Shown: piece after piece, positions 11,154-48,373 of the stretch
Layout: the number at the start of each line of letters is the position of its first letter
How positions within the stretch are numbered: the first letter of the stretch is position 1
Assembly (NCBI GenBank): GCA_902801165.1
Contig: CADCHI010000029.1
Location: 1 to 64,000, forward strand
Origin: an uncultured Eubacteriales bacterium
Lineage (GTDB): Bacteria; Bacillota; Clostridia; Christensenellales; Aristaeellaceae
Direction: 5' to 3'
DNA: 64,000 nt
The notes under the pieces: generated by a model
The model's input: only the letters and a program-made list of their open reading frames with translations
Told to the model about the DNA's origin: nothing
Databases searched by the model: none
Made by a program: the position numbers and the translations under genes

Positions 11154-14100
11154 ATGCCACTGAACAAGGATATCAAGAAGGTTCTGATGATCGGCTCCGG
11201 CCCCATCGTGATCGGCCAGGCGGCGGAATTCGACTATGCCGGCGCCCAGGCCTGCCGCGTGCTGAAGAAGGCGGGCGTGAACGTGGTGCTGGTGAACAGC
11301 AACCCCGCCACCATCATGACGGACAAGGCCCTGGCGGACGAGATCTACCTGGAGCCGCTGACGGTGGAGACCGTCAAGCGCATCATCGAAAAGGAGAAGC
11401 CGGACAGCATGCTGGCGGGCCTGGGCGGCCAGACGGGCCTGACCCTGGCCATGCAGCTGGACAAGGAGGGCTTCCTGCAGACCCACGGCGTGAAGCTGAT
11501 CGGCACCAACGCCGAGGCCATCGACAAGGCGGAGGACCGGCAGCTGTTCAAGGACACCATGCAGGCCATCGGCGAGCCGGTGATCCCCTCGGACATCGCC
11601 GAGGATGTGGAAACCGCCCTGTCCATCGCCGAACGCATCGGCTACCCGGTCATCATCCGCCCCGCCTTCACCCTCGGCGGCACCGGCGGCGGCGTGGCCT
11701 ACGATCCTTCGGAGATGGCCGCCGCGGCCCGCACCGGCCTGGACGCCTCCCCCATCACCCAGATTCTGGTGGAGAAGTACATCGCCGGCTGGAAGGAGAT
11801 CGAGTTCGAGACCATGCGGGACGCCGCGGGCAACTGCATCGCCATATGCAGCATGGAGAACGTGGACCCGGTGGGCATCCACACCGGCGACTCCATCGTG
11901 GTGGCCCCGGCGCTGACCCTGGCCAACAAGGAATACCAGATGCTGCGCAGCGCGTCGCTGAACATCATCAACGCCCTGGGCATCGTGGGCGGCTGCAACT
12001 GCCAGTTCGCCCTGGACCCCGTCAGCTTCGAGTACGCGGTGATCGAGGTCAACCCCCGGGTCAGCCGCTCCTCGGCCCTGGCCAGCAAGGCCACCGGCTA
12101 TCCCATCGCCAAGGTGACCACCCAGATCGCCCTGGGCTACACGCTGGACGAGATCAAAAACGAGATCACTGGCAAGACCTGCGCCTGCTTCGAGCCGGCG
12201 GTGGACTACATCGTGGTCAAGTTCCCGAAGTGGCCCTTCGACAAGTTCAACACCGCGTCCCGCCGGCTGGGCACCCAGATGAAGGCCACCGGCGAGGTGA
12301 TGAGCATCGCCCCCACCTTCGAGATGGCGCTGATGAAAGCCGTGCGAGGCGCGGAGATCAAGCTTGACACGCTGAACCGCCCCTATGACGGCGACCGCCC
12401 GGTGCGGGAACGCCTGGCGGACTGCGACGACCACCGCATCTTCACCGTGTTCGAGGCCATCAAGGCGGGCGTGTCCATCGACGAGATCCACGCCATCACG
12501 AAGATCGACCGCTGGTTCCTGAACAAGATCAAGAACCTGGCGGACTACGAGGCCCGCATCTCGGGCGGCCTCACCGACGAGGACTACTTCCTCGGCAAAA
12601 AGCTGGGCTATCCTGACGCGGCGCTCAGTCGGCTGTCCGGGCGGGTGGACCTGCCCGAGACCCACTCCACCTACAAGATGGTGGACACCTGCGCGGCGGA
12701 GTTCGACGCCGAGACCCCCTACTTCTACGAGACCTTCGACCAGGTCTGCGACGCACGGAACTTCCCAAGGTCAGAAAAGCAGACCATCATGGTCCTCGGC
12801 TCCGGCCCCATCCGCATCGGCCAGGGCATCGAGTTCGACTATTCCAGTGTGCATTGCGTATGGACGCTCAAGCAGCTGGGCTACGACGTGGTGATCGTGA
12901 ACAACAACCCGGAGACCGTCTCCACCGACTACGACACCGCCGACCGGCTGTACTTCGAGCCGCTGACGGACGAGGATGTCATGCGCATCATCGAGGTGGA
13001 GCGGCCCGTGGGCGTGGTGGTGGCCTTCGGCGGCCAGACGGCCATCAAGCTGACCCAGCACCTGGACCGGGCCGGCGTGAAGATCCTGGGCACCTCCGCC
13101 GAGGGCATCGACATCGCCGAGGACCGGGAGCGCTTCGACGCGCTGCTGGAGCAGTTCAGCATCCGCCGGCCGAAGGGCATGGGCGTGCACAGCCTCCCGG
13201 AGGCCCTGGACGCCGCCGAGGCCCTGGGCTATCCGGTGCTGCTGCGGCCCAGCTACGTCATCGGCGGGCAGAACATGACCATCGCCCACAACCGCCACGA
13301 CGTGACCGTGTACATGAACCGCATCCTGGCAGGGGGGATCGACAACCCGGTCCTCGTCGACAAGTACATGTCCGGCGTGGAGCTGGAGGTGGACGTGATC
13401 TCTGACGGCTCGGACGTGTTGATCCCCGGCATCATGCAGCACGTGGAACGGGCCGGCGTGCACAGCGGAGACTCCATCGCCGTCTACCCGCCCTTCTCGC
13501 TGGACGACGCCATGATGGAGACCGTGGTGAAGAGCAGCGAAAAGCTGGCCCTCGCCCTGGGCACGAAGGGCCTGGTGAACATCCAGTACCTGGTGTACCA
13601 CGGCGAGCTGTACGTGATCGAGGTCAATCCCCGGGCCAGCCGCACCATCCCCTACATCAGCAAGGTCACCGGCGTGCCCATGGTGGACCTGGCCAGCCGC
13701 GTGATGATAGGTCAGCCGCTGAAGTCGCTGGGCTACGGCACCGGCCTGTACAGGACCCCGCCCTACTGGGCCGTGAAGGTGCCCGTGTTCAGCTTTGAGA
13801 AGCTCACCGACGCCAACAGCTACCTGGGGCCGGAGATGAAGAGCACCGGCGAGGTGCTGGGCATCGGCAAGACGCTGTCCGAAGCGCTGTTCAAGGGCCT
13901 GGTGAGCGCCGGGACCCGGCTGCCCCACCCCGGCGAGCGCACCGGCGTGCTGCTGAGCGTGGACGAGTACGACTACCTGGAGGCCGTCGACGTGGCCCGC
14001 CGGTTCAGCGACCTGGGCTGCGCGATCTACGCCACCGAGGGCACGGCCCAGACCATCGCCACCCTGGGCATCCCGGTGACGGCCATCCCCGGCATCCGGG

Positions 14101-15179
14101 AGAGCGACCACGCCTTCGAGCTGCTGGAGAGCGGGAAGATCAACTACATCGTCTACACCGGCGCGCTGCTGGACAGCACCATCGAGGACTACATCGCCCT
14201 GCACCGCAAGGCGCTGCTGCTGAACATCGCCTGCCTGACCTCCCTGGACACCGCCCGGGCCCTGGCGGACATCCTGCTCTCCCGCTACAGCCAGCAGAAC
14301 ACGGAGCTGGTGGACATCAACCACATGCGCGCCGAGCACCAGAAGCTGCGCTTTACCAAGATGCAGGCCACCGGCAACGACTACATCATCATCGACGCCA
14401 TCCGCCAGCAGATCACCTGCCCGGAGAGCCTGTGCGTGCGGCTCTGCGAGCAGCACTACGGCGTCGGCGCCGAGGGCATGACGTTGATCGAGGCCAGCGA
14501 CGTCGCCGACGCGAAGATGCGCCAGTACAACCGGGACGGCACCGAGGGCGGCATGGGCGGCAACGCCATCCGCTGCGTGGCCAAGTACCTGTACGACAAC
14601 GGCATCGTCCACAAGCCGGACATCGCCATCGAGACCGCCGGCGGCGTGAAGAAGCTGCACCTGTACACCCGCTACGGCAGGGTCTCCTCCGTGGCAGTGG
14701 ACATGGGGCCCGCCTCCTTCGAGCCTGAAAAGGTGCCCTGCACGCTGGACGTGGCGCGCGCCGTGAACGTCCCCGCCCAGATCGGCGGAAGGACCTACGC
14801 CGTCACCTGCGTCTCCATGGGCAACCCCCACTGCGTGGTGTTCACCGACGGCGTGGACGGCCTGGACCTCAATTCCATCGGCCCGGTGTTTGAAAACGCG
14901 CCGCTGTTCCCCGAGCGCGTGAACACGGAGTTCGTCCGCGTGGTCAACCCCACCACCCTGCGCATGCGCTGCTTCGAGCGCGGCAGCGGCGAGACCATGG
15001 CCTGCGGCACCGGCGCCTGTGCCGCCGCGGCCGCCGCCGTGGAGAACGGGCTGTGCCGTGGGGACGCCGACATACTGGTGCTGGTCCCCGGCGGCAAGCT
15101 GTGGGTGCGCTGCACCGACGACGCCGTGCTGCTCACCGGCAAGGTGGAGCAGGTGTTCGAGGCGGAGACGGAGTATTGA
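11154..15179 (+). CDS. carB-dapF: Fusion of carbamoyl-phosphate synthase large subunit with diaminopimelate epimerase
   Basis: 1341 aa in one uninterrupted frame. Residues 1 to about 1055 are a complete CarB: two ATP-grasp synthetase halves, each opening with GSGPI.IGQ, and a C-terminal MGS-like allosteric domain (IYATEGTAQTIATLG). From about residue 1065 (LRFTKMQATGNDY) to the end is a full DapF: GNPHCVVF, and the second catalytic Cys1284 in GETMACGTGAC. The first catalytic Cys, normally in MCGN, is Gly1135 here (MGGN). CarB makes carbamoyl phosphate for arginine and pyrimidines; DapF makes meso-DAP for lysine and peptidoglycan. GAAGGGAG precedes the ATG. CarB alone is normally about 1070 aa, so this is a true fusion, not read-through by sequencing error. 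Confidence 0.93.
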   Translation: MPLNKDIKKVLMIGSGPIVIGQAAEFDYAGAQACRVLKKAGVNVVLVNSNPATIMTDKALADEIYLEPLTVETVKRIIEKEKPDSMLAGLGGQTGLTLAMQLDKEGFLQTHGVKLIGTNAEAIDKAEDRQLFKDTMQAIGEPVIPSDIAEDVETALSIAERIGYPVIIRPAFTLGGTGGGVAYDPSEMAAAARTGLDASPITQILVEKYIAGWKEIEFETMRDAAGNCIAICSMENVDPVGIHTGDSIVVAPALTLANKEYQMLRSASLNIINALGIVGGCNCQFALDPVSFEYAVIEVNPRVSRSSALASKATGYPIAKVTTQIALGYTLDEIKNEITGKTCACFEPAVDYIVVKFPKWPFDKFNTASRRLGTQMKATGEVMSIAPTFEMALMKAVRGAEIKLDTLNRPYDGDRPVRERLADCDDHRIFTVFEAIKAGVSIDEIHAITKIDRWFLNKIKNLADYEARISGGLTDEDYFLGKKLGYPDAALSRLSGRVDLPETHSTYKMVDTCAAEFDAETPYFYETFDQVCDARNFPRSEKQTIMVLGSGPIRIGQGIEFDYSSVHCVWTLKQLGYDVVIVNNNPETVSTDYDTADRLYFEPLTDEDVMRIIEVERPVGVVVAFGGQTAIKLTQHLDRAGVKILGTSAEGIDIAEDRERFDALLEQFSIRRPKGMGVHSLPEALDAAEALGYPVLLRPSYVIGGQNMTIAHNRHDVTVYMNRILAGGIDNPVLVDKYMSGVELEVDVISDGSDVLIPGIMQHVERAGVHSGDSIAVYPPFSLDDAMMETVVKSSEKLALALGTKGLVNIQYLVYHGELYVIEVNPRASRTIPYISKVTGVPMVDLASRVMIGQPLKSLGYGTGLYRTPPYWAVKVPVFSFEKLTDANSYLGPEMKSTGEVLGIGKTLSEALFKGLVSAGTRLPHPGERTGVLLSVDEYDYLEAVDVARRFSDLGCAIYATEGTAQTIATLGIPVTAIPGIRESDHAFELLESGKINYIVYTGALLDSTIEDYIALHRKALLLNIACLTSLDTARALADILLSRYSQQNTELVDINHMRAEHQKLRFTKMQATGNDYIIIDAIRQQITCPESLCVRLCEQHYGVGAEGMTLIEASDVADAKMRQYNRDGTEGGMGGNAIRCVAKYLYDNGIVHKPDIAIETAGGVKKLHLYTRYGRVSSVAVDMGPASFEPEKVPCTLDVARAVNVPAQIGGRTYAVTCVSMGNPHCVVFTDGVDGLDLNSIGPVFENAPLFPERVNTEFVRVVNPTTLRMRCFERGSGETMACGTGACAAAAAAVENGLCRGDADILVLVPGGKLWVRCTDDAVLLTGKVEQVFEAETEY

Positions 15180-16283: not shown

Positions 16284-18728
16284 ATGAAGACCCTTTCCCT
16301 GAACGGACCCTGGACGCTGAACGTGGTCTCCGAGGACGGCGCGTCGGTATTCGCGGACGTGCCTGCGATGGTGCCCGGCTCGGTGTACCACGACCTGCTG
16401 ACCGCCGGGCGGATCCCCGATCCCTTCTGGCGGGACAACGAGAACGAGGCGCTGATGCTGATGGAGCACCACTTCACCTATGCCCGCGCCTTCGACGTTC
16501 CCGAGGCGCTGCTGGCCTGCGACCGGGTGCTGCTGCGCTGTGAGGGCCTGGACACGCTGGCGGACATCACCGTGAACGGCATCCCTGCCGGCTCCGCGGA
16601 CAATATGCACCGGACCTGGGAATTCGACGTCAAGGCCCTGCTGCGGCCCGGCGCGAACGAGATCGCCGTGGCGCTCCGCTCCCCCACCCGCGCCATCCGT
16701 GCCGCCTACGCCGAGAGCCGCGCCGACGGCTCCAGCGACGCCATGACCGGTTTCCCGCTGCTGCGCAAGGCCCACTGCATGTTCGGTTGGGACTGGGGCC
16801 CGCGGCTCCCCGACGCCGGCATCTGGCGGGACATCTCCCTCGTGGGCGTGGAGACCGCCCGCATCCGGGACGTCTACATCCGCCAGCGCCACACGTCGGG
16901 CCAAGTGACCTGCGAGATCGAGACCCGCACGGAGAATGCCCTTTCGGAGGGCGTCCGGATCGAGGCGACGATCACCGCGCCGGACGGCGAGACCTTCACC
17001 GCCCTCGGCGAGCGCTGCGCCGTCGAGATCGAAAATCCCAAACTGTGGTGGCCCAACGGCTGGGGCAGTCAGCCCCTGTACACCGTAACCGTCCGCCTGA
17101 TGGCGGGCGAGCGCGAGCTGGACCGCTGGCAGCGCCGCATCGGCCTGCGCACACTGACCGTGCGCCGCGCGCCGGACGAGTGGGGCGAGAGCTTCTGCTT
17201 CTGCGCCAACGGCGTGGACATCTTCGCCATGGGCGCGGACTACATCCCCGAGGACAACCTGCTGCCCAGGGTGACCCCCGAGCGCACCCGCCGGCTGCTG
17301 GAGGACGCCGTCGCTGCCCACATGAACACCATTCGCGTCTGGGGCGGCGGCTACTACCCGGACGACTTCTTCTTCGACATCTGCGACGAGCTGGGCCTGA
17401 TGGTCTGGCAGGACTTCATGTTCGCCTGCGCCGTGTACAACCTGACCGACGCCTTTGAGGCGAACCTGCGCGCGGAGTTCGCGGACAACATCCGCCGCCT
17501 GCGCCACCACGCCTCCCTGGCCCTGTGGTGCGGCAACAACGAGATGGAGGGCTTCGTCGCCGCGGGCCTGTGGACCACCGACAAGCGCCAGACCGCCGAC
17601 TACATCAAGATGTTCGAGTACATACTGCCCCAGGTGCTGAAGGTCGAGGACCCCGACCGGTTCTACTGGCCCTCCAGCCCCTCCAGCGGCGGCTGCTTCG
17701 ACGATCCCCAGGACCCCAATCGGGGCGACGTGCACTATTGGGACGTCTGGCACGGCATGAAGCCCTTCACGGACTACCGCAACTACCTGTTCCGCTTCGC
17801 CTCGGAGTTCGGCTTCCAGGCCTTCCCCTGCATGGAGACCATCGAGGGCTTCACCCTGCCGGAGGACCGCAACGTGTTCTCCTACGTGATGGAGAAGCAC
17901 CAGCGCAACGCCTCCGCCAACGGCAAGATCGCCGAATACCTGTCCCAGACCTACCTGTACCCCACCAGCTTCGACGCCTTCGTCTACGCCTCCCAGCTGC
18001 TCCAGGCCCAGGCCATACAGTACGGCGTGGAGCACTGGCGCCGCAACCGGGGCCGGTGCATGGGCGCGGTGGTGTGGCAGCTGAACGACTGCTGGCCGGT
18101 GGTCAGCTGGGCCAGCGTCGACTACCACGGCCGCTGGAAGGCCCTGCACTACTACGAGAAGCGCTTCTTCGCCCCGGTGCTGATCTCCTGCTGTGAGGAG
18201 GGCATTCTCTCCCAGAACACCAACGTGAACGCCGAGCCCTTCCCGCTGAAGAAGTCCGCCCGGCTGAACGTCAGCAACGAGACGCCCAACCCCTTCCGGG
18301 GCACCGTCCGCTGGTCGCTGCGCCGGCCCGACGCCTCCATCCTGCGGGAGGGCAGCGCCACCGTGGAGGTCCCCGCCCGCTCGGCCCTGTGGCTGGACGA
18401 GCAGGACTTCTCCGACGAGGACACCTACGGCTGTTACTTCGCCTACGCCCTGGAAGATGAAGGCGGCCGCCTCGTCGGCAGCGGCACCGTGCTGTTCTGC
18501 CCGCCGAAGCACTTCCGCTTCCAGGATCCGCGCCTCGAGGCCCGCGTCGAGGGCGACGAGATCGTCGTCACCGCCGGGGCCTACGCCCGCAGCGTGGAGC
18601 TGCGCTGCGGCGGCGACGTGCTGCTGGAAGACGACTTCTTCGACATGAACGCCGGGGAAAGGCGCGTGAAGGTGCTCCGCGGAACCCCCGGACAGGTCTC
18701 TGCGCGAAGCGTGTACGACATAAGGTAA
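16284..18728 (+). CDS. GH2 beta-mannosidase
   Basis: 814 aa, typical size for the family. N-terminal jelly-roll starting LNGPWTL, the segment FGWDWGPRLPDAGIWR characteristic of beta-mannosidases, a TIM barrel with acid/base Glu420 in WCGNNE and nucleophile Glu508 in FASEFGFQ, and the late WQLNDCWPVVSWASVDY motif. No signal peptide, so it removes mannose from imported manno-oligosaccharides in the cytoplasm. AGGGGG lies before the ATG. Monocistronic, with its own promoter. Confidence 0.94.
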   Translation: MKTLSLNGPWTLNVVSEDGASVFADVPAMVPGSVYHDLLTAGRIPDPFWRDNENEALMLMEHHFTYARAFDVPEALLACDRVLLRCEGLDTLADITVNGIPAGSADNMHRTWEFDVKALLRPGANEIAVALRSPTRAIRAAYAESRADGSSDAMTGFPLLRKAHCMFGWDWGPRLPDAGIWRDISLVGVETARIRDVYIRQRHTSGQVTCEIETRTENALSEGVRIEATITAPDGETFTALGERCAVEIENPKLWWPNGWGSQPLYTVTVRLMAGERELDRWQRRIGLRTLTVRRAPDEWGESFCFCANGVDIFAMGADYIPEDNLLPRVTPERTRRLLEDAVAAHMNTIRVWGGGYYPDDFFFDICDELGLMVWQDFMFACAVYNLTDAFEANLRAEFADNIRRLRHHASLALWCGNNEMEGFVAAGLWTTDKRQTADYIKMFEYILPQVLKVEDPDRFYWPSSPSSGGCFDDPQDPNRGDVHYWDVWHGMKPFTDYRNYLFRFASEFGFQAFPCMETIEGFTLPEDRNVFSYVMEKHQRNASANGKIAEYLSQTYLYPTSFDAFVYASQLLQAQAIQYGVEHWRRNRGRCMGAVVWQLNDCWPVVSWASVDYHGRWKALHYYEKRFFAPVLISCCEEGILSQNTNVNAEPFPLKKSARLNVSNETPNPFRGTVRWSLRRPDASILREGSATVEVPARSALWLDEQDFSDEDTYGCYFAYALEDEGGRLVGSGTVLFCPPKHFRFQDPRLEARVEGDEIVVTAGAYARSVELRCGGDVLLEDDFFDMNAGERRVKVLRGTPGQVSARSVYDIR

Positions 18729-18733
18729 GGAAC

Positions 18734-18762
18734 TTGACACGGGTTTGAATCTCAACTACAAT
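18734..18762 (+). promoter_or_regulatory. Promoter of the small ORF mRNA
   Basis: TTGACA (18734-18739), 17 bp, TACAAT (18757-18762). It starts 6 bp after the beta-mannosidase stop codon. Confidence 0.85.
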
Positions 18763-18843
18763 ATAAATGCCCGAGAGGGCCGAAGAGCGAACAACAAACA
18801 TGCAGGCGGTTGCTCCTACATCTCCGAAAGGAGGTGAAGGACC

Positions 18844-18930
18844 ATGCGCGTTACATTCCATCTTGGAAGGTACACCGTCACGATCATCGTGTACGAACGC
18901 AAAAAAAGCAACCGCCACTCTGCCAAGTGA
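18844..18930 (+). CDS. 28-residue candidate type I toxin peptide
   Basis: ATG to TGA encodes a 28-aa peptide that begins MRVTFHLG, has a short hydrophobic core (YTVTIIVY) and ends in a basic tail (ERKKSNRHSAK). A perfect AAAGGAGGTGA ribosome site precedes it, but GGAGGTG (18830-18836) is paired with CATCTCC (18819-18825) across a GAAA loop, which would hide it. The 5' leader segment 18805-18817 is complementary to both 18907-18916 (within the ORF) and 18969-18979 (after it). A consensus promoter faces it from the other strand. The layout is that of a type I toxin mRNA; toxicity is inference. Short ORFs of this type look familiar from Clostridia, but I know of no assigned function. Confidence 0.7.
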   Translation: MRVTFHLGRYTVTIIVYERKKSNRHSAK

Positions 18931-18998
18931 CGGATGCTTTGGGTAAACCGGGGTATTCTTGATCGCTGAGGAGCAACCGTGTGCGTGGTTTGCTCTTC
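18901..18998 (-). ncRNA. Candidate antisense RNA (antitoxin)
   Basis: Predicted from the promoter at 19005-19033 to a Rho-independent terminator: stem 18908-18939 (GC.TCCGTCACT with AGTGGCGG.TGC, one wobble) followed by seven U encoded by 18907-18901. The transcript of about 98 nt would be fully complementary to the 3' part of the small ORF and its downstream sequence. Its 5' end forms a second hairpin, GAGCAA..CC/GGTTGCTC. Expression is not shown by sequence. Confidence 0.65.
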
Positions 18999-19004
18999 GC
19001 CTCT

Positions 19005-19033
19005 ATTATAATTCCGGGATTTGCAATTGTCAA
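19005..19033 (-). promoter_or_regulatory. Consensus antisense promoter
   Basis: Perfect TTGACA (19028-19033) and perfect TATAAT (19005-19010) with 17-bp spacing on the minus strand, reading toward the small ORF. There is no protein gene it could otherwise serve. Confidence 0.85.
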
Positions 19034-19040
19034 GTTCAAA

Positions 19041-19068
19041 CGGCGCTGTCGCTCTCGCGACAGCGCCG
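19041..19068. terminator. Terminator of the opp operon
   Basis: A 12-bp perfect stem CGGCGCTGTCGC with a 4-nt loop, about 30 bp past the oppA stop, followed by TTTG on the minus strand. Confidence 0.8.
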
Positions 19069-19098
19069 TCCTTTGCCCTTTCGGGCGGGGTTCATCGA

Positions 19099-20763
19099 TT
19101 AGCGGCCGAACTGGCAGTCGTTGTTGCCGGACTCGGTGGTCCACATCTCCAGCATGTTGATCGGGTCGTTGAAGTCAGCGATCCAGCCGTTGCGGGCGAT
19201 GTCGTAGTTGCCAGCCTTGCGGTCATCCAGGAACACGTTCCAGTCGCAGGTGCGGATGGTCATGGTGATGCCCACGGCCGCCAGGTCCTGCTGGATGCAC
19301 TCGGCGATGGCCACGTGACCGGAAGACTCGTTGGTCAGGTACTCGAAGGAGATGGGGGTGTTGGCGGACAGCATCTCGCCGTCGAACTCAAAGCCCGCTT
19401 CCTTCAGCAGCTCGATGGCGCCCTCGACGTCCACATCGTAGCCGTAGTAGCCCACGTTCTCCTCGTCCGGATAGGTGTAGGCATCGTCGTTGGCCTTGAA
19501 CACGCCGCCCTGGCCATCAGCCATGCCCTCGGGGATGAAGGCGTTGGCAGGCTTCTGCTCGCACTGGCCCACGGTCTCGATGATGTAGTCGCGGTCGATC
19601 AGCTTGGAGAAGGCCAGACGCATGGCGTTCGCCTGCTCGACGGTCTTGCCGTCAAACAGATGGGACTTCACGTTGAAGCACACATAGTAGGTGCCCAGGT
19701 TGTCGATGATGTGGAACTCCTCGGAGTCCTTCAGGTTCTGGATCTCATCGGTGGGAACGGAGTCGATGAAGTCCACGTCGCCGGCCTGATAGGCGGCATA
19801 GATGGCGGTGTCGTCAGCGGAGAGCATGAAGGTCAGCTTCTCGAGCTTGACGTTCTCGGCATCATAGTAGTTGGGGTTCTTGGTGTACACCATGGACTCG
19901 TTGTGGGTCCACTCGGTCAGGGTGAAGGGGCCGGAGGTCACGAAGCCAGCCTCGTTCGCCCAGGCGCCGGGATTGTCCTGCCAGCCCTCAACGGACTCGA
20001 CGCAGGCCTGGTTCACGGCGTAGAAGGCCGGGAACGCCATCAGGTCCAGCATGTAGGCGCAGGGAGCGTCCAGCTCGACGGTCAGGGTGGTGCCATCCTC
20101 GGAGGCAGCCACGGCCAGGTCTTCCGGATAGCCCTTGATGCCGTTGAACATGTAGCTGTAGTCAGCGGCGGTCGCGGGGTTGGCGGCGCGCTTCCAGCTG
20201 TACTCGAAGTCCTTGGCGGTCAGGTCAGTGCCATCGGACCACTTCAGGCCCTCACGCATGGTGAAGGTGTAGGTCAGGCCGTCCTCGCTCATCTCGTAGC
20301 CGGTGGCGAAGTCGGGCTTCAGGTTGCCCTCGGCGTCATAGGTGTACAGGCCGCCGAAGGAGGCGATGGCCAGGCACGCGCCGTCCACGGAGCTGTTCAG
20401 AGCGGGATCCAGATGGTCCGGCTCGGAGGCCAGGTTCAGACGCAGGGTGTCGGAGCCTTCCACGGTGGCATACTGGAAGAACTTGAAGCCGAACAGGTTG
20501 GCATAGATGCCGTCCACGGTGGGCTTCTGCATGTACAGATCGTTGTAGTAGTAGATCGGCAGGATGGCGCCAGTGGACATCAGGATGTCCTCAGCCTCAT
20601 GCATCTTGGCTTCGCGGGCAGCGAAGTCGGTCTCGGACTTGACTTCGGCAATCAGCTCGTTGTACGCAGTCCAGTCGGGCTCGGAGCCTTCATCCGCCAT
20701 GGCGATGGCGACGCAGGAGATGAGCATCATCATGGCCAGCAGCGCTGCAAGCAGCTTCTTCAT
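19099..20763 (-). CDS. oppA: Peptide ABC transporter substrate-binding protein, circularly permuted
   Basis: 554 aa with a signal peptide (residues 1-23) and an AGGAGG site. It is a family 5 (OppA) binding protein, but the order is changed. Residues about 28-102 (DWTAYNELIAEV, then ILPIYYYNDLYMQKP, then FKFFQYATVE) are what normally forms the C-terminal end of OppA. Residue 104 on (DTLRLNLASEPDHLDPALNSS) is the usual mature N-terminus, and the protein stops at NDCQFGR, where the C-terminal segment should follow. Both joints are in frame. The two ends of the moved segment carry the same 11 bp, GAAGGCTCCGA (complement at 20681-20691 and 20450-20460). Captures oligopeptides for OppBCDF. A misassembly of tandem paralogues is the main alternative. 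Confidence 0.85.
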   Translation of the reverse strand: MKKLLAALLAMMMLISCVAIAMADEGSEPDWTAYNELIAEVKSETDFAAREAKMHEAEDILMSTGAILPIYYYNDLYMQKPTVDGIYANLFGFKFFQYATVEGSDTLRLNLASEPDHLDPALNSSVDGACLAIASFGGLYTYDAEGNLKPDFATGYEMSEDGLTYTFTMREGLKWSDGTDLTAKDFEYSWKRAANPATAADYSYMFNGIKGYPEDLAVAASEDGTTLTVELDAPCAYMLDLMAFPAFYAVNQACVESVEGWQDNPGAWANEAGFVTSGPFTLTEWTHNESMVYTKNPNYYDAENVKLEKLTFMLSADDTAIYAAYQAGDVDFIDSVPTDEIQNLKDSEEFHIIDNLGTYYVCFNVKSHLFDGKTVEQANAMRLAFSKLIDRDYIIETVGQCEQKPANAFIPEGMADGQGGVFKANDDAYTYPDEENVGYYGYDVDVEGAIELLKEAGFEFDGEMLSANTPISFEYLTNESSGHVAIAECIQQDLAAVGITMTIRTCDWNVFLDDRKAGNYDIARNGWIADFNDPINMLEMWTTESGNNDCQFGR

Positions 20764-48219: not shown

Positions 48220-48227
48220 AGTATCGA

Positions 48228-48373
48228 CCGCTGGGGGCGCCGAAAGGCTGAGATGGGCGGAGACGTCCGGTCCCTTGGAACCTGAAGTGGATAATCCCAC
48301 CGTAGGGAAGCGGAGCGCCGTTTTTCGACGTCCCCGTTTCCCCGCGTGCGCAAAGCGCATGCGGGTTTCTTTT
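48228..48373 (+). promoter_or_regulatory. TPP riboswitch with terminator platform
   Basis: THI-box aptamer at 48228-48313: GGGGGCGCCGAAAGGCTGAGA, CCCTTGGAACCTGA and GATAATCCCACCGTAGGGAAG blocks all present. The expression platform ends in an intrinsic terminator: CCCGCGTGCGC (48341-48351), AAA, GCGCATGCGGG (48355-48365), TTTCTTTT. Binding of thiamine pyrophosphate is expected to favour termination and shut off thiT. Confidence 0.95.

Follow-up and report, generated by a model that had tools for sequence, protein, structure and literature searches.

A probable type I toxin-antitoxin module with a cationic 28-residue peptide, a 5'-3'-paired mRNA and a convergent antisense RNA in an uncultured Eubacteriales bacterium

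The type I toxin-antitoxin systems txpA/RatA and bsrG/SR4 encode transmembrane toxins whose ribosome site is sequestered by base pairs (PMC6562991). In the type I modules of Clostridioides difficile, mRNA and antisense RNA are convergent with long complementarity, and the toxins, 34-59 amino acids (aa) with a transmembrane domain and a charged C-terminus, are often encoded in prophages; no homology in sequence between these toxins and other known ones is reported in that review (PMC6563280). In aapA/IsoA of Helicobacter pylori, which has several chromosomal copies, a 5'-3' long-distance interaction closes a stable full-length mRNA; it is the 3' partner that hides the ribosome site, and the mRNA becomes active on 3' trimming (PMC6733600). 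AapA1 is an alpha helix, and membrane-type type I toxins possess a hydrophobic transmembrane alpha helix (PMC8309996). We analysed a stretch of 64,000 nucleotides (nt) from an uncultured Eubacteriales bacterium (contig CADCHI010000029.1, positions 1 to 64,000; "the window"). It contains a locus at 18734-19033 that, to judge from its sequence, is very probably a chromosomal type I toxin-antitoxin module with a 5'-3'-closed mRNA, an antisense RNA antidote and a cationic toxic peptide. Comparison of related copies establishes four of its parts: a coding open reading frame (ORF), two conserved promoters, a leader-tail pairing in the mRNA and an antisense terminator.

The locus shares its sequestered ribosome site with txpA/RatA and bsrG/SR4, although their toxins are transmembrane and the overlap of about 98 nt is shorter here. 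The convergent RNAs, long complementarity and charged C-terminus recall the C. difficile modules, whose toxins are longer; their sequences were compared with the 28-aa peptide of the window through the library searches. Multiple copies and the 5'-3' mRNA pairing typical of hok/aapA-like control are both found here, the pairing being that of leader and tail, but a local hairpin rather than the 3' partner hides the ribosome site, and the peptide is a predicted beta hairpin, unlike AapA1. The fst/RNA II system (par of pAD1) also has convergent transcripts and a small peptide. In that system the repeats give the two RNAs mutually complementary 5' ends; the repeats of the window locus are inverted instead, so both RNAs share 5' sequence. 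The 3'-overlapping txpA/RatA type fits best and fst less well. A sequence-only reading of the window had already reported both promoters, the 28-aa ORF and the GAAA-loop hairpin with GGAGGTG as one arm, all of which lie where it placed them. It took the hidden ribosome site, 5'-3' pairing and convergent antisense RNA as marks of type I systems, and the coding ORF, covariation and conserved promoters described below strengthen that view.

The window's genome has one copy. The peptide was found in 24/200 family genomes at E <= 1, own genome counted, 14 of them at E <= 1e-3. A GTDB contig scan gave 60 loci with mostly metagenome-assembled titles (uncultured Clostridiales, Clostridia, Christensenellaceae, Oscillospiraceae, Ruminococcaceae, Lachnospiraceae; several rumen by title). 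A further 7 loci came from viral contigs; the plasmid records searched gave one match and the phage records searched gave none. Strong rows in peptide searches of 396 order and 391 class genomes were confined to the window's own genus, unlike the contig scan, where members named Oscillospiraceae and Lachnospiraceae do occur. Pooling of loci and removal of duplicates left 92 peptide-like matches, from which four were dropped as chance (L030, L032, L059, L061), giving 88 copies. The ORF is intact in 74/88. Codons 1-16, which lie outside the antisense RNA, were compared in 33 copies. Single-base codon differences in the ORF frame were 2745 synonymous versus 919 non-synonymous; the other plus frames gave 447/3288 and 298/3414, and the best reverse frame 1716/1996. 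Variation was greatest at third codon positions, and T4, F5 and H6 were invariant in 33/33 copies, each through 2 to 4 codons. By this substitution pattern the 28-aa ORF is coding.

Conservation of both promoter and terminator indicates that a separate antisense RNA gene overlaps the toxin mRNA. The antisense promoter matches the consensus at 10/12 positions or better in 86/88 copies and at 11/12 or better in 82/88. Of the two below 10/12, L111 is truncated by a contig end, and L023 has a broken ORF and an antisense relative lying further off (G060:C10). Control sites of at least 11/12 in the same DNA numbered 4/92 downstream on the plus strand and 12/92 upstream on the minus strand, the latter probably in part from tandem copies. 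The plus promoter, at 10/12 or better, lies upstream in 72/88 copies. In a 4-kb scan of the window 3 promoter-like sites were found, versus 0.5 expected from shuffles, and the two promoters of the locus are oriented toward each other. The antisense RNA had been read as ending at a stem plus T run inside the ORF, and this stem and T run are in place. The pair 18915/18930 is C-A on the plus strand and G.U on the minus strand in 64/66 copies. Because the mismatch falls on the mRNA and the G.U pair on the antisense RNA, the hairpin appears to be made for the antisense strand. The predicted folds of mRNA (18769-19003) and antisense RNA lie at z = -6.8 and z = -3.7 versus shuffles. No curated RNA family of Rfam matched at 18700-19100.

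The sequence-only reading had offered two partners for the mRNA leader and called for a covariance check. One, 18969-18979 (11/11), covaries and belongs to a pairing longer than described, with two helices and 23 pairs; the other, 18907-18916 (10/10), found weak support and is taken up below. Pairs were counted in 66 of 86 elements, after broken, near-duplicate and oddly long rows had been removed by hand. Both-side changes occurred at 12/12 pairs of helices 1 and 2 (73% and 82% of cells paired), at 8/11 pairs of helix 3 (88%) and at 2/7 pairs of helix 4, the ribosome-site hairpin (83%). Leader-tail and ribosome-site helices together were 83.5% paired with both-side changes at 22/30 pairs, and the 146 both-side-changed cells, versus 58 in shuffles, were reached by 0/500 shuffles. 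Sliding the alignment by 1-3 columns reduced pairing to 41-53%. Further tests used the 76 of 86 elements with a plus promoter of at least 9/12. Each copy's own tail beat tails less than 60% identical in 3073/3232 comparisons, by a mean of 17.5 kcal/mol, and in L105, L131 and L072 the arms are very different yet complementary. Pairing of the leader with the mRNA's own 3' end is thus supported by compensatory changes. When the leader is folded, 71/74 copies have a ribosome-site core that is at least 80% paired. A stretch of 11 nt spanning the tail end contains a mean of 6.6 T (76 copies), partly because it overlaps the antisense -10 box; the tail hairpin with its T-rich stretch is a possible mRNA terminator. 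The tail was counted as part of the mRNA because it covaries with the leader.

These parts suggest the following mechanism. Transcription from the plus promoter would yield an mRNA, about 235 nt long, in which the 5' leader pairs with the 3' tail and the ribosome site is shut in a local hairpin adjoining the leader-tail helix. The minus promoter would drive a second RNA, about 98 nt long, with full complementarity to the mRNA's 3' part and to the last codons within it. By analogy with the described systems, with transcript ends placed as in Table 1, the mRNA would be stable and the antisense RNA short-lived, and their duplex would be cut by a double-strand RNase so that little peptide is made. 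Were the antisense RNA exhausted or the mRNA trimmed, the cationic 28-aa peptide with its amphipathic beta-hairpin head would be made and would harm the cell, probably at the membrane. Trimming is borrowed from hok and AapA, since removal of the tail does not free the ribosome site in our folds. Control would then combine 3' overlap as in txpA/RatA and bsrG/SR4 (PMC6562991) with the kind of 5'-3' closure described for aapA/IsoA (PMC6733600). Such closure may help to keep the mRNA stable, or leader and antisense RNA, which share sequence, may be competitors for the tail.

The peptide had been described as unlike known type I toxins, and it indeed had zero matches in Pfam, NCBIfam, PHROGs, PADLOC and PDB, searches that are limited by the short query. 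PF16935 (Hol_Tox) was matched neither by the window peptide nor by 46 aligned members, and in a literature search that covered subscription journals thinly the family was not named in the titles and abstract openings reached; looking up peptide strings found no paper. Within the libraries and literature searched, the family is new. Five example peptides are amphipathic with a net charge of +5 to +7. The 19-residue Kyte-Doolittle maximum averages 0.53 in 77 peptides (highest 1.07), and in 77/77 the beta moment is larger than the alpha moment. AlphaFold2 modelled a 30-aa relative from 46 sequences with strands at 2-7 and 10-15; the mean predicted local distance difference test (pLDDT) was 78.5, with 91 for residues 1-10 and 61 for the last third, and the predicted template modelling score (pTM) was 0.31. 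The peptide is therefore predicted to be a cationic beta hairpin rather than a membrane helix, which, structure prediction being hard for short peptides, serves as a lead. In L043, L123, L128 and L129 the C-terminus is AATPHK-like instead of NRHSAK-like, the ORF reading the retained antisense hairpin in another frame.

The same RNA layout was found with other peptides. Model R1, derived from 42 antisense RNAs of this module family, was run on 291 class genomes, where plain terminators are among its matches of about 25-37 bits. Of 36 class rows outside the own genome, the best 21 comprised 14 with a hydrophobic peptide ORF, one antisense gene alone and six judged unrelated (L170, L178, L179, L181, L182, L183). 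The 14 have a short hydrophobic peptide directly 5' of the hairpin, ending in KK in 13 and in KRK in L190; L169 is truncated by a contig edge and four were assigned by eye or confirmed later. In L168, the best R1 row with a peptide (53 bits), the 22-nt hairpin is identical and the peptide is MEYVLAFALVVMVIVLIIKK. L177 exceeds the Hol_Tox cut-off (27.6 versus 23.3). Leader-tail pairing was above all 100 shuffles in 9/12 of these loci, failing in L171, L177 and L189; the L176 row measured a neighbouring copy.

Hol_Tox itself matched in 14/148 genomes. Of 17 loci 15 were entered (without L243 and L245), and L241, which has no stop, was set aside to leave 14, some with starts misplaced by the script. 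Like the window locus, these have a short ORF and, as judged by eye, a GAAA-type hairpin close to the ribosome site and a stem at the stop codon; a minus promoter-like site of 9-11/12 lies downstream. Leader-tail complementarity is strong in 8/14, with an energy of -39 or lower versus about -20 shuffled, and the tail ends 59-98 nt past the stop. The peptides differ. Hydrophobic peptides that share the layout have 19-residue Kyte-Doolittle maxima of 1.8-2.9 (11 peptides), well above those of the window family, which is a predicted beta hairpin unmatched by PF16935. We place bsrE/SR5 and bsrH of Bacillus subtilis beside the Hol_Tox loci as what we take to be the nearest systems. We conclude from these likenesses that the RNA parts of the window family and the Hol_Tox loci are related in design; they may also share ancestry, for which L168 argues. 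More tentatively, the window peptides may be the first-known family of cationic amphipathic beta-hairpin type I toxins, on an antisense chassis that elsewhere carries Hol_Tox-like helices; we know of no earlier beta-hairpin family of type I toxins. If so, the chassis would be a module that keeps its RNA control while the toxin is exchanged, and this natural exchange of folds would separate the requirements of the RNA part from those of the toxin part. Since the peptide found no match in the protein libraries searched, current annotation probably overlooks loci of this kind.

The sequence-only reading had held that copies with the peptide but without the antisense promoter would speak against it. 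All but one of the intact-ORF copies (73/74) keep the promoter, and the remaining one, L111, is cut at a contig end; apart from it, no intact ORF without the antisense promoter was seen among the 88 copies. The converse occurs. The promoter is kept in 13/14 of the "not intact" copies, a class that includes possibly working ones (L025, L124, L131), and in L138, L145, L167, L186, L187 and L229 the ORF start is deleted while the antisense promoter is retained. This bias is indirect evidence that the peptide is harmful to its own cell. We wondered whether the peptide could instead be harmless to its own cell, serving as a small regulator or, once exported, as an antimicrobial, with the antisense RNA damping its synthesis. 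It is cationic and amphipathic, as antimicrobial peptides often are, and the nearest downstream genes look by eye like an oligopeptide-type ATP-binding cassette (ABC) transporter with a binding protein. The one-sided retention and a layout common to Hol_Tox-like peptides make this unlikely.

TTGACA faces inward at both ends of the locus, the 5' transcript sequences are alike and the copies are patchy and sometimes tandem, so the inverted repeat could in principle be a DNA feature only, such as a small mobile or palindromic element that gene conversion keeps alike, with RNA pairing as a by-product. Arm mismatches in 76 copies were G.U in 113 cases, A.C in 31 and others in 129; per copy, G.U exceeded A.C in 50, was less frequent in 7 and tied in 19. 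Such an excess is to be expected where pairing in the mRNA matters, and not from a copied DNA repeat. With the coding selection on the ORF and the strand-specific G.U pair of the terminator, it renders a DNA-only repeat very improbable. That ORF and promoters arose by chance without function, for which small size alone speaks, is scarcely credible with the layout kept in 86/88 relatives.

Several points weigh against a type I module or qualify the evidence above. The peptide family does not have the transmembrane helix seen in known membrane-type type I toxins. The ribosome site is closed in all four calculated forms, with or without the tail. When all tails including related ones are compared, the own tail is best or tied in just 19/76 copies (mean fractional rank 0.10). 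Terminator-like sites in the 4-kb scan numbered 3 versus 2.2 in shuffles and are alone not above chance, and the R1 score of L177 (31.8) taken alone lies in the noise range. The alternative pairing of leader 18805-18814 with the ORF end at 18907-18916 is weakly supported: its core GGCGG/CCGCC is near invariant, leader changes are unmatched and 18813/18908 pairs in 22/66. Cells paired there were 86.9% versus 84.7% shuffled (0/500 as high), both-side-changed cells 15 versus 10 (14/500) and pairs so changed 4 versus 2.8 (87/500). As to retention, an ORF-deleted copy (L140/L192) also lacks the antisense -35 box, and the intact class requires a stop codon in GTGA context, which favours copies keeping the antisense hairpin. 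A tally of loci picked out by a regular expression and a promoter filter of at least 10/12, in classes of our own definition, covers 47 rows, of which 29 are intact, 7 are broken, 10 are "solo" and 1 lies at a contig edge; it counts copies that passed the filter only. The "solo" rows are of several kinds: degenerate or frameshifted (L147, L210), divergent but open (L157), spurious (one L152 row) and without an ORF start (six). The copies are also related rather than independent, so copy counts overstate events.

Table 1. Predicted features of the candidate module (window coordinates)
Feature	Position	Strand	Remarks
Plus promoter of toxin mRNA, TTGACA-17-TACAAT	18734..18762	+	consensus match 11/12; predicted
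Antisense promoter, TTGACA-17-TATAAT	19005..19033 (read 19033-19005)	-	consensus match 12/12; predicted
Toxin mRNA, about 235 nt	18769..19003	+	predicted; ends inferred
5'-terminal hairpin GCCC-GAGA-GGGC	18769..18780	+	-6.7 kcal/mol; similar ones in relatives by eye
Outer leader arm	18781..18792	+	partner 18988-18999; helices 1 and 2, covariation
Inner leader arm	18807..18817	+	partner 18969-18979; helix 3, covariation
Ribosome-site hairpin CATCTCC-GAAA-GGAGGTG, 7 base pairs	18819..18836	+	GGAGGTG is 3' arm; -9.5 kcal/mol
28-aa ORF MRVTFHLGRYTVTIIVYERKKSNRHSAK, putative toxin	18844..18930	+	coding signature; 74/88 copies intact
mRNA 3' tail	18968..18999	+	pairs with leader; alone can fold to hairpin, then T-rich stretch
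Antisense RNA, about 98 nt, putative antitoxin	18901..18999	-	predicted; fold z = -3.7; relatives via model R1
Antisense terminator stem, then T run	18912..18933	-	overlaps last ORF codons

Antisense relatives were found with R1 in 18/28 genus genomes, 1 to 6 in each. In G940, which shows 98% identity in the 414-aa beta-mannosidase part, there is no copy at the site or elsewhere in the assembly (94% complete). Besides G940, a copy at that site was absent in 9 of 15 loci examined, 1 being unreadable, while L195, L205 and L206 have a copy after the same gene as in the window, but reversed. We read this as repeated gain and loss of the module. Between the same two genes G940 has different DNA of similar size (L194), and an exact empty site was not obtained; this DNA includes a repeat of the terminator-like hairpin located after the module in the window.

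Vescimonas fastidiosa MM35, whose record gives Homo sapiens as source, has, between nadE and a LysR-type gene (L231 28826-29585; NZ_AP023416.1, about 308826-309584), two full tandem copies and a third antisense gene that lacks a peptide. All are missing from the gene table shown, which PLSDB calls incomplete. As a named, sequenced strain, MM35 opens the system to experiment. NZ_AP023416.1 is filed as a plasmid yet bears dnaA, gyrA and gyrB.

Elsewhere in the window, a 1341-aa ORF at 11154-15179 (+) resembles by eye a carbamoyl-phosphate synthase large subunit followed by diaminopimelate epimerase, a possible fusion. A thiamine pyrophosphate (TPP) riboswitch (RF00059, 74.7 bits) is located at 48223-48325 (+).
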